Origin: Runella sp. SP2
GTDB lineage: Bacteria > Bacteroidota > Bacteroidia > Cytophagales > Spirosomataceae
Direction of reading: 5' to 3'
Assembly: GCF_003711225.1 (NCBI RefSeq)
Contig: NZ_CP031030.1
Coordinates: 6,251,501-6,315,500 of the forward strand
DNA: 64,000 bases
Shown: piece after piece, positions 6,057 through 40,473 of the stretch
How the letters are laid out: every line of letters starts with the position of its first letter
How positions within the stretch are numbered: the first letter of the stretch is position 1
The notes under the pieces: model-generated
Told to the model about the DNA's origin: nothing
Databases searched by the model: none
Seen by the model: the letters and a program-made list of their open reading frames with translations, nothing else
Translations under genes and position numbers: made by a program

Positions 6057-6160
6057 GTTAAATAAGCGTTATCAGTTATCTGTTGTCCGTTAATGTTATC
6101 GTTACCCGCTAATTTTGAAGGAATTCCACTCAACGGATACGCGGATAACTATTAACTCAT
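6057..6160. repeat. Heptad repeat element (GTTANNN forward arm, reverse arm) in the atpD leader
   Basis: Forward heptads GTTATCA, GTTATCT, then GTTGTCC and GTTAATG run without gaps at 6068-6095, continue as GTTATC and GTTACCC to 6107, and are preceded by GTTAAAT at 6057. Reverse-complement heptads ACTCAAC, GGATAAC and TATTAAC lie at 6128-6156. On the minus strand this falls inside the predicted 5' leader of atpD. Confidence 0.7.
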
Positions 6161-6172
6161 CCTTTCAGGCCG

Positions 6173-6204
6173 CAAAATTAGGCGTTTGTTTTCTGAAACC
6201 CAAA
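6173..6204 (-). promoter_or_regulatory. Promoter of atpDC
   Basis: On the minus strand TTTG (6204-6201), 20 bp, then TAATTTTG (6180-6173) is a perfect match to the Bacteroidota -33/-7 consensus. The predicted 5' leader is about 115 nt. The rest of the 343-bp gap 6052-6394 holds only the heptad element and a weak plus-strand box TAACCTTG at 6365-6372 for the next gene. Confidence 0.75.
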
Positions 6205-6394
6205 ATCAGTTATCTCTATTTTGGATATTTTTTATAGAAATGACCTATTTTATCGAAAAATGTTGTGCGAAAACGAGTTTGACCCACAAATGGAAGCATT
6301 ACAAATCCAAATCTTAACAAACAAATTAAAGAGGTTGACTGTTGATTTAGCCGTATTTTGTTAGTAACCTTGTAAAAGTTACCACTCCTACTGC

Positions 6395-7468
6395 TTGAAA
6401 CTCTATTTGCAACTATCGGCGAGCTTCCTGCTCATGGCAACCTTGCTTCCGTTTGTCCGAAGTGATTATTGGACTTTTCGGGTAGTAGAATTTCCGCGTT
6501 TGCAGAAATTTTTCCTTGGGCTAGTGGTGCTTGGTTTGTATGCCACTGTCATGTCGGTGGCGTCGTGGTTGGATTGGGGAGTGGTTGTATCGCTCGTAGC
6601 GATGCTGGGATACTTGGCTTGGCAAGTGTATCCGTTTACGCCTTTTGCCCCAAAACAACTCATTAAAACGCGCATCATCAACGCCGACCGCACTTTGAGT
6701 TTGATGATGTGGAACGTGTATCAGTACAACCGCAATGCTGCCCGTTTTCTTCGACTTGCCCAAAAGGTAGATTCTGACGTTATTTTATTGGCGGAGACAG
6801 ACTTGTGGTGGCAAGAAAATGTGCGCTCCTTGGAAGAAAAGTACCCGCACCTAGTGCATGTTCCGTTGGAAAATACTTATGGAATGCTTCTTTACTCCAA
6901 ACTACCGCTGCTGGAGGCAAAGGTGCATTATTTGGTTGAAGAAGGTATTCCTTCGATTCATGCCAAAATACAGCTTCGTTCGGCCGAAGAAGTACAATTG
7001 TTTTGTATTCATCCGACCCCGCCCGTTCCACAAGAAAATCCCCGCTCGACGGAAAGAGATAAAGAACTATTACTCATTGCCGAACTTGCCAAAACGAGTA
7101 CAAAGCCTGTTGTTGTTTGCGGAGATTTGAACGACGTAGCGTGGAGTTACACCACCGATTTGTTTCAGAAAATGAGCGGCTTACTCGACCCGCGCCGTGG
7201 CAGAGGTTTCTTCAATACTTTTCATGCTAAAATTCCTTTTTTGCGTTTTCCGCTCGATCACGTTTTTTGTTCCACCGATTTTACACTCATCAAAGTAGCT
7301 CGCCTTCAAAACAGTGGTTCCGATCATTTTCCGATGTACATAAAACTACAGTACGAACCTAAGGCTGTTTTGGTACACGACGAGCCGCAGCCGACAGCGG
7401 AAGAAGAGCAAGTAGCCCAAGAAAAGATAGAGAAAGAAACGCGAGATGAAGGTCCCGCTACTGAATAG
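6395..7468 (+). CDS. Membrane-anchored endonuclease/exonuclease/phosphatase (EEP) family protein
   Basis: A 357-aa protein with two or three N-terminal hydrophobic helices (about residues 1-80). A cytoplasmic or periplasmic EEP domain follows, with LSLMMWNVYQYNR (the conserved Asn at the metal site), DVILLAETD (catalytic Glu), VVCGDLND (Asp/Asn pair) and the final SDHFPMYI (Asp-His). These are the conserved elements of the Mg-dependent phosphodiesterase fold shared by DNase I, AP endonucleases and sphingomyelinases. The membrane anchor argues against DNA repair and for an envelope phosphodiester substrate, but this is inference. The C-terminal tail is rich in Glu. The start is a TTG; no in-frame ATG lies nearer than the second helix, and a TAACCTTG box at 6365 supports it. 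Confidence 0.8.
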   Translation: MKLYLQLSASFLLMATLLPFVRSDYWTFRVVEFPRLQKFFLGLVVLGLYATVMSVASWLDWGVVVSLVAMLGYLAWQVYPFTPFAPKQLIKTRIINADRTLSLMMWNVYQYNRNAARFLRLAQKVDSDVILLAETDLWWQENVRSLEEKYPHLVHVPLENTYGMLLYSKLPLLEAKVHYLVEEGIPSIHAKIQLRSAEEVQLFCIHPTPPVPQENPRSTERDKELLLIAELAKTSTKPVVVCGDLNDVAWSYTTDLFQKMSGLLDPRRGRGFFNTFHAKIPFLRFPLDHVFCSTDFTLIKVARLQNSGSDHFPMYIKLQYEPKAVLVHDEPQPTAEEEQVAQEKIEKETRDEGPATE

Positions 7469-38709: not shown

Positions 38710-38844
38710 AAAATGATGATTTGTTAGATAGTTAGTTCAAAGTGAAAAAATTTACAATCAATAGTTTAAGGCAATTTGAGCCAAAAACTAATACTACGAA
38801 AGCCCTTCAACTATCGATTGCAGACCCATCCGTTGGCTAATTTG

Positions 38845-40329
38845 CTAATAACCAGGACTTTGAACACAAAGCTTGTTGGCATCAATTTCCGCTTGCGGAA
38901 TCGGAAACAGTACGCGTTCGGGCTTGGCATTGGTGATGCCACGCGCTTGAGCTAATGAAATAAACGTCCCTTGGCGAACAAGGTCTTCGCGGCGTTTACC
39001 TTCTGAGACAAACTCCCAACCTCTTTCTCTAAAAATGGCCGTACGGAAAGCATCTTTTGTAGGAGTGTCCGTTTGGGTCAAATTGGGAATCCCTGCTCGT
39101 GTACGAACGAGATTAATTAATGTAAATGCCTCCGCAGTGGGGCCATTGAGCTCGTTCAGGGCCTCTGCTCTGGTAAGTAGAATATCGGCGTAACGCAGTA
39201 TTGGAACGTCCGTTCCGCTATTGTTTCCGACGGTGTTGTTATCCCAATACTTAAAACTACGCGCATTATCTCCCGTTGACAAATCAATGGTTTGGTTGCT
39301 GGTATTGACATAACTCGTACAAATCAACTGTAAACGCTTGTCGTTGGCGGCAAACGAACTGGTAAATGCCGTCCGCAAGCGGTACTGCGTCGCAAAATTC
39401 GACATAGTGGTTTTGTAGGTAAAATTCGGAAACTGAGGGCTGCTCTTGTAGCCTGGCGGCAGTGCTCCTGCTTGGTACCAATTGCCAAAAGGATCTTCGG
39501 GGCGGCATTGAAGTGCCAAAATCATTTCACGGTTGGCCGCACCTTCATTTTCGACTCTAAACATCCCCACAAAATCTGGATTGAGGGCGTAGTAATTAAA
39601 ATCCATTACGGCTTTGGCGGCATCGGCCGCTTTTTGCCATTGCTTGGTGTTGAGATAAAACTTCGCCAAAATACTATACGCAACGCCCTTACTAAACCGT
39701 CCATAAGTTTCTTCTTTGCCTGGATCTGGTAAATCGGGAATTGATTCAGTGATTTCTTTTTCAACAAACGCCTTTAGCTCTTCTTCCGTTGCCCGTGCCA
39801 AATCGGCGGGTTGTGTGGTGGAAGTCCGCAAGGGGACCGTTCCAAAAAAAGTCATCAAAAGCGCATACGCTTGTGCCCGCAAGACCCTTGCTTCGGCTTT
39901 AAAGAGTTTTTTTGTTGACTCCGCCGCTGTCACATTTCCTACGTTTTCGATGACACCGTTGGCATCGCGTACCACGCGGTAGTTAGGGTCCCACATATCG
40001 GCTGCCAACGTTCCGAGCGTTGGATCCCACGTAAAATTGATTAGTTGAATAAGTTGTCCATTTTCAGCGCCACCCGTGTTAAATCCCATATCAGTACAAA
40101 CTTCCGAATCGTTGATCACGTAGCGCGAGTTGGATTGAGTTTGCTGGTGTGCGTACGCCGAAAAAAGCAACGCTTTGATGCCGCTTTCCGACGTGAGTAC
40201 GTTGTCGGGCGAAAACTCAGACCTCGGCGATACTTCCAGCGCTTTTTCGCACGACGTCAACATCAGAAGCCCTCCGATGATTAAGCTATAGTTGAATGAT
40301 TGTCTCATTTGATTTGTCATTTTGTTCAT
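38845..40329 (-). CDS. SusD/RagB family glycan-binding lipoprotein
   Basis: A 494-aa outer-membrane lipoprotein with the signal LIIGGLLMLTSC (lipidated Cys27 if started at 40329; starts at 40320 or 40308 are also possible). EVSPRSEFSPDNVLTSESGIKALLFSAY is the N-terminal SusD-like domain; the TPR-like helical core (RAQAYALLMTFFGTVPL; AYSILAKFYLNTKQWQKAADAAKAVMDF) and the closing RAGIPNL and FRERGWEFVSEGKRREDLVRQG are typical. It forms the lid on the SusC transporter. Its gene is 154 bp after susC, an unusually long gap filled by a heptad repeat element. Confidence 0.95.
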   Translation of the reverse strand: MNKMTNQMRQSFNYSLIIGGLLMLTSCEKALEVSPRSEFSPDNVLTSESGIKALLFSAYAHQQTQSNSRYVINDSEVCTDMGFNTGGAENGQLIQLINFTWDPTLGTLAADMWDPNYRVVRDANGVIENVGNVTAAESTKKLFKAEARVLRAQAYALLMTFFGTVPLRTSTTQPADLARATEEELKAFVEKEITESIPDLPDPGKEETYGRFSKGVAYSILAKFYLNTKQWQKAADAAKAVMDFNYYALNPDFVGMFRVENEGAANREMILALQCRPEDPFGNWYQAGALPPGYKSSPQFPNFTYKTTMSNFATQYRLRTAFTSSFAANDKRLQLICTSYVNTSNQTIDLSTGDNARSFKYWDNNTVGNNSGTDVPILRYADILLTRAEALNELNGPTAEAFTLINLVRTRAGIPNLTQTDTPTKDAFRTAIFRERGWEFVSEGKRREDLVRQGTFISLAQARGITNAKPERVLFPIPQAEIDANKLCVQSPGY

Positions 40330-40330
40330 T

Positions 40331-40473
40331 GTTAACTGTTATTAGTTATCTGTTAACCGTTACTTGTTATCTGTTAACTGCGCCTCCTTGTGATTAACCA
40401 TTCACAATCACCGAATTACAGCGATTTCACCATTCTACAATTTACTATTAACAAATAACAGTTAACCATTAAC
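40331..40473. repeat. Large heptad repeat element in the susC-susD spacer
   Basis: Seven uninterrupted GTTANNN units (GTTAACT, GTTATTA, then five more) occupy 40331-40379. Four uninterrupted reverse-complement units (TATTAAC, AAATAAC, then AGTTAAC and CATTAAC) occupy 40446-40473, and looser reverse units of the type NNNTNAC fill much of 40391-40445. The arms share the exact 13-bp inverted repeat GTTAACTGTTATT / AATAACAGTTAAC. The element almost fills the spacer and would fold in the mRNA. Confidence 0.85.

Follow-up and report, generated by a model that had tools for sequence, protein, structure and literature searches.

GTTW heptad arrays between protein genes of Runella sp. SP2 as probable stems of small hairpin elements resembling rRNA intervening sequences

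What are the runs of directly abutting 7-bp GTTWNNN units that occupy four spacers between protein genes in a 64,000-nucleotide stretch of Runella sp. SP2 (contig NZ_CP031030.1, positions 6,251,501 to 6,315,500; hereafter the window, whose coordinates, counted from 1 at its first letter, are used throughout unless prefixed C1)? The first-pass annotation had recognised them as an intergenic repeat family and had pointed to the heptameric short tandemly repeated repetitive (STRR) sequences of cyanobacteria, which are 7-bp repeats with unit sequences other than GTTW. Our analysis suggests that the arrays are probably, though well short of certainly, the stems, with one arm or with both, of small hairpin elements that lie between protein genes and resemble the intervening sequences (IVSs) of rRNA genes. 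The same architecture, built from units of other themes, flanks on both sides the genes encoding the 23S rRNA intervening-sequence protein (IVP; PF05635, also called S23p, a four-helix bundle) in Bacteroidota and cyanobacteria, and GTTW is one flavour of this wider heptad class. Three points go beyond what had been noticed at first: many heptad themes exist besides GTTW, these themes are linked to IVP genes and intervening sequences, and the arrays abut the ends of coding sequences.

Abutting units are present in all four window spacers and their exact runs could be mapped, the array in the spacer at 6057-6160 being degenerate. The description of two T-type and two A-type spacers, three of them with inverted arms, also held, with a weak reverse arm in the 6057 spacer and a single arm in the one at 10286. 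Scanning the whole 7.61-Mb genome for contiguous arrays gave 98 matches (54+44) to (GTTWNNN)4GTTW, against 2 (0+2) for the reversed pattern. A looser score was applied to 1.26 Mb of sampled DNA, consisting of about 20 kb around each of 44 array places, 16 other stretches and the window; it found 101 arrays vs. 28 reversed at score 14, so that about a quarter of the score-14 arrays could be chance, and 64 vs. 7 at score 18. The part not chosen for arrays (the window and the 16 stretches, 382 kb in two contiguous blocks) held 11 vs. 2 at score 14 and 8 vs. 0 at score 16. The pattern is matched in 35 of 59 relatives, with the reversed control equalling or exceeding it in several (e.g. G018, G038, G055). 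The three bases said to vary do differ between units, but they are constrained, T-type units following GTTT-N-S-D and A-type units GTTA-W-Y-Y.

The intergenic character of the family was borne out in part. After one of the 101 score-14 arrays had been dropped, 100 had usable flanks; 59 of these are non-coding and 41 lie in called coding sequences, 34 of the latter within near-identical giant paralogous genes and 7 elsewhere. Those paralogues (C1 3.34-3.75 Mb, 0.39 Mb; loci L032 and L051-L059) carry near-identical GTTW-like runs of 28-35 bp in their coding sequence, which inflate raw counts.

Only the 59 non-coding arrays entered the count of gene boundaries, all 41 coding arrays having been set aside first. 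The GTT side is nearer a gene in 53 of them; it lies no more than 15 bp from the edge of a coding sequence in 39, where 10.8 would be expected for random placement, and the other side does so in 2. The arrays thus abut the ends of coding sequences, with GTT directed into the spacer. Where the outer edge faces a stop, 28 of 30 are within 15 bp; where it faces a start, the number is 11 of 29, start-codon calls being crude. By this orientation rule, the 'inverted arms' mark the opposite ends of a single spacer. The 44 array spacers comprise 34 tandem, 7 convergent and 3 divergent ones (391, 76 and 103 among all 570 spacers); the under-representation of divergent spacers (Fisher p 0.042) points to transcribed positions. 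Some of the neighbouring genes we take, reading by eye, to encode 3-isopropylmalate dehydratase.

The tie to intervening sequences is best seen around IVP genes. One of the two IVPs of the SP2 genome, which has an internal TGA stop, sits between two GTTATC arms in the spacer C1:63089-63527, between genes that presumably (again by eye) encode succinate dehydrogenase subunits. The orthologous spacer of R. defluvii contains another IVP with other repeats, and in R. limosa an IVP (locus L299) lies between GTTT arms. There are 50 IVP matches across 13 Runella genomes; 30 loci were fetched, 28 of them with full flanks, and in self-similarity 41 of the resulting 56 edges were over the threshold at lag 7 and 36 at lag 14, with 0-3 at each of the remaining lags between 4 and 15. 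One IVP locus was taken from each of 20 other genomes of the family, two of these loci having been picked for a known array; they gave 27 of 40 edges at lag 7, 20 at lag 14 and 0-5 at other lags. Eighteen plasmid loci (drawn from 25 records, of which 23 are cyanobacterial) gave 27 of 36 at lag 7, 16 at lag 14, 9 at lag 8, 4 at lag 15 and 0-3 elsewhere. Control windows 520-800 bp from the IVP loci showed lag 7 in 3 of 92 cases, and 61 Bacteroidota loci fetched for another purpose in 13 of 474 edges, with 8 at lag 14 and 0-4 at the others. Unselected spacer edges of the SP2 genome gave 17 of 326 at lag 7, 16 at lag 14 and 1-8 at other lags; with a stricter criterion and a shorter window the figures were 7/362, 10/362 and 0-2.

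The arms at IVP loci are inverted and 7-bp-periodic, and their unit theme differs by locus. Over 37 loci, the left and right arms share a theme, inverted, more closely than arms of different loci do (0.64 within a locus vs. 0.45 between loci). In the 34 of 40 loci where a 5' arm was called, it starts at the edge of the upstream coding sequence (median -2 bp, in a search begun 14 bp inside that sequence); the 3' arm, called in 26 of 40, ends a median of 16 bp before the next one, and both neighbours are co-directional with the IVP in 35 of 40. The GTTW arrays are placed in just this way. Among 61 genomes of the family 57 have PF05635, against none of the 14 control genomes, and outside Runella the sole array locus of one genome (G033) and one array locus of another (G031) adjoin IVPs. 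The four IVPs tested belong to TIGR02436/PF05635, three of them being weakly similar to the Avd protein of diversity-generating retroelements; the structure of a Xanthomonas homologue has been solved (2gsc). One query for IVPs in phages returned no match. On three cyanobacterial plasmids (L331, L341, L337) the IVP lies inside CRISPR gene clusters, in the order cas6-IVP-cas4 in two and between cas10 and a cmr3-family gene in the other. Our searches, made in the open-access literature, turned up no published link between heptad arms and IVPs between genes.

Unit theme and IVP sequence also vary together. Over the 54 of 62 loci with an arm, IVP identity correlates with theme similarity (r 0.33, 0/2000), and the correlation persists without pairs that share a neighbour gene (r 0.23, 0/5000), with one locus per site (27 loci; r 0.38, 0/5000), among 14 plasmid loci (r 0.48, 0/5000) and across phyla (r 0.17, 114/5000). 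These sequence comparisons suggest that an IVP may recognise its own heptad theme specifically.

Orthologous spacers both with and without the element occur in relatives. The 45 non-coding array clusters were sought in two species of the genus, R. defluvii DSM 17976 and R. limosa DSM 17973, and in two more distant genomes. R. defluvii yielded 36 of the spacers (array in 23, weak in 4, absent in 9) and R. limosa 30 (15, 3 and 12); the more distant G009 yielded 13 (2, 1 and 10) and G006 yielded 10 (2, 0 and 8). Both arms of the window's SusC-SusD spacer are also present in R. defluvii. R. limosa has no element there, its SusD start coming directly after the SusC stop; among the 41 of 61 SusD loci inspected (L200 being without upstream sequence and L183 having only 123 bp), R. 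defluvii alone has a GTTW array in the roughly 190 bp that precede the SusD match. At C1:2131716 the arms of R. limosa agree in position and sense but consist of different units. Other spacers of relatives contain different inverted repeats instead, and unit number differs between species. Divergence of the GTT core, the variable bases and the remaining spacer is 2.9%, 9.2% and 9.0% against R. defluvii, and 2.2%, 31.6% and 14% against R. limosa; the comparison was confined to pairs that were alike in length and at least 75% identical, and ascertainment biases the contrast between core and variable bases by as much as about twofold, which has to be set among the points against our reading given below.

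Folding agrees with the earlier suggestion of mRNA hairpins for most two-armed elements, 14 of 17 having z < -2 against mononucleotide shuffles. The two arms between the SusD-like and SusC-like genes of the window are one hairpin element, and this one (40330-40479) reaches z -4.98 against dinucleotide shuffles. At IVP loci the 5' arms are purine-rich (39/49) and the 3' arms purine-poor (31/42), a bias that suggests a role of the RNA strand.

Comparison with rRNA intervening sequences starts from plasmid AZO_p2 of Azospirillum lipoferum, where an IVP lies within a 23S rRNA gene (RF02541 match at 283-3321 of locus L346) and the complementary arms of the IVS are heptads. That IVP, at 1501-1821 of the locus, is without a feature in the PLSDB gene table. 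The Coxiella IVS is reported to have tandem heptamers before its S23p open reading frame (ORF), the first of which holds the RNase III site (PMC4990558); it is because these two IVSs carry heptads that we read heptad arms as IVS stems. Like rRNA IVSs (PMC4990558, PMC2672173), the elements have complementary stem ends, and their presence is sporadic among close relatives; an optional IVP ORF may be a further common trait. They differ in that GTTW arrays lie between protein genes and the variable bases of their arms are not specially complementary, and in that excision, like mobility and IVP binding, is something we infer for them. The window elements are not inside a 16S or 23S rRNA gene, the neighbours named by Pfam being protein genes. 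By location, then, the GTTW elements are not rRNA IVSs; they look like them, and they may work like them.

Among published heptads, MacGregor (2015; PMC4679880) described TAACTGA repeats in Beggiatoaceae, in cyanobacteria and in five Bacteroidetes; they equal A-type GTTATCA arrays reverse-complemented and abut starts in the TAACTGA sense, one set standing after a stop in reverse sense. They include those of Flexibacter litoralis, now Bernardetia, a member of Cytophagales, so that the first-pass remark that no description was known in this order does not stand. TAACTGA repeats differ from GTTW arrays in having mostly one unit sequence and single arms, and no link to IVPs or IVSs is made there; GTTATCA is itself rare among A-type units (2/88). 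The cis-regulatory role proposed there for TAACTGA just upstream of starts leads to the strongest of the other explanations, which we still consider unlikely: that the arrays are regulatory RNA with no relation to mobile elements. Those before starts would be A-rich (NNNAAAC)n leaders and those after stops (GTTTNNN)n trailers, to which proteins of the S1, Csp or Csr type would bind. Outer array edges at starts and stops and the conserved core would fit such a role. However, stops and starts are about equally common at the outer edge (30 vs. 29), arrays also occur in convergent spacers (7/44), they come and go between close relatives, and the link to IVPs would be left unexplained.

Somewhat less probable still is neutral slippage, by which any spacer might grow 7-bp repeats and selection would clear them from coding sequence. 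A perfect run of eight GTTAATC units at C1:5106777 and the differences in unit number between species are what slippage would give, but neighbouring units mostly differ while the core is kept, and under the stricter criterion unselected edges clearly exceed the shuffled level only at lags 7 and 14. Nor would slippage account for arms that share an inverted theme at IVP loci or for the orientation rule.

Degenerate heptads in inverted convergent pairs, like those of GTTW, also make up the GGGAATC / GGGGA(T/C)T repeats of Xanthomonas and Nostoc (PMC4692102, an article that mentions the heptanucleotides of Calothrix 7601 as well). These repeats share the position rule: they lie closest to the ORF on their 5' side, on whichever strand it is encoded, and may even overlap its stop codon. 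They differ in having G-rich units and have been discussed as G-quadruplexes. The P6b stem of the Nostoc trnL intron (TDNGATT + NNTGAGT) likewise consists of degenerate heptads, one motif class having repeatedly given way to the other, but it lies within a group I intron (PMC4476775). That the GTTW arrays act as DNA-level structures or protein-binding arrays, as G-quadruplexes or sites for a nucleoid protein, is very improbable: the Xanthomonas and Nostoc repeats, with the same heptad period and position rule, have been so discussed, but the GTTW core is not G-rich and divergent spacers are under-represented. Equally improbable are elements of the repetitive extragenic palindrome type (REP/REPIN) moved by a Y1 (RAYT) transposase or by reverse transcriptase, since for all that the elements are palindromic, intergenic and multi-copy, and that Y1 matches occur in 13 of 13 and reverse transcriptase matches in 8 of 13 Runella genomes, the array-rich SP2 genome has no reverse transcriptase match and a single low Y1 match (26.7 bits at a cut-off of 23, 65 of 121 model positions), which lends either driver little support, and the arms are degenerate heptads.

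Several observations weigh against reading the arrays as stems of IVS-like elements. The SP2 genome has two IVPs for 45 non-coding array clusters, and there is no IVP gene in the window elements. We examined one classical rRNA IVS, that of A. lipoferum. Lag 7 is not singled out in the mean over all unselected spacer edges, only in the tail, and the correlation of theme with IVP falls short of significance within Bacteroidota alone (r 0.088, 476/5000). In folding, the window elements other than 40330-40479 are unremarkable (z -1.50, +0.16 and -1.42, dinucleotide shuffles), and special pairing of the variable bases between arms was unsupported, since they pair no better than with shuffled units (2/17 at p<0.05). 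No clean target-site duplication was seen by eye at the nine clusters compared with relatives, and most empty sites may reflect loss rather than gain.

Given the IVS-like reading, GTTW copies would be ORF-less, mRNA-borne members of the IVP/IVS element family. Each would be a hairpin at a stop-start junction, transcribed with its operon and imperfect in that the core bases would be paired and the variable bases paired by chance. Gene junctions would tolerate such an element just as rRNA loops tolerate IVSs, and RNase III would perhaps cut it. IVP-type proteins might bind the arms through the heptad theme and help in their spread or upkeep, and ORF-less copies would outnumber coding copies in the SP2 genome. 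A broader proposal, which we put forward tentatively and regard as more doubtful than the reading itself, is that intergenic heptads (GTTW, TAACTGA, GGGAATC, STRR and trnL P6b) and rRNA IVSs form one superfamily of RNA-level selfish hairpins; each 7-nt theme would be recognised by a cognate pentameric four-helix-bundle IVP that drives both the spread and the upkeep of arms in trans, with ORF-less arms multiplying at the stop-start junctions of operons.

Table 1. Heptad arms mapped in the window
Feature	Position	Strand	Units and neighbouring gene
A-type left arm	6068..6095	+	2 exact units (6068-6084), then degenerate; near start of ATP-synthase alpha/beta-type gene (4531-6051, -; Pfam)
Weak A-type right arm	6143..6156	-	looser scoring, score 9
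T-type array	10286..10323	+	5 exact GTTTNNN units; single arm; 10 bp past stop of glutamyl-tRNA reductase gene (Pfam)
T-type left arm	28952..28968	+	2 exact units and one degenerate
T-type right arm	28973..29003	-	4 exact units; 2 bp from stop of pseudouridine-synthase gene (29006-29728, -; Pfam)
A-type arm	40331..40375	+	6 exact GTTANNN units; adjoins ORF start of SusD-like gene (38845-40329, -; Pfam)
A-type arm, opposite sense	40450..40473	-	3 exact units; beside stop of SusC-like gene (40484-43981, -; Pfam)

An Rfam search of the window gave no match. Beside the elements listed in Table 1, a further spacer with inverted arms, made of AATTTGAAA-type units, lies at 4453-4530 between two minus-strand genes, and GGTTGTGAGCAACCC-like palindromes are repeated at 10344-10390, next to the T-type array; the R. 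defluvii spacer has more copies of them. Elsewhere in the genome some A-type elements (loci L070, L042, L084 and L068; C1:6611638, 2501026, 5827600 and 6199180) have, by eye, a common outer flank resembling AAGTGCTNNNNCACA next to the arm, and they are perhaps a subfamily.

The IVP/S23p family is widespread and of unknown function, and the origin of IVSs is likewise unknown, according to one account (PMC4990558); the heptad repeats of several phyla have so far been explained separately, without proof. A tie between heptads and IVPs would join several unexplained families of bacterial repeats, and the architecture they share makes IVP function, IVS origin and the heptad repeats testable together. 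It would also change how the spacers within operons are read.

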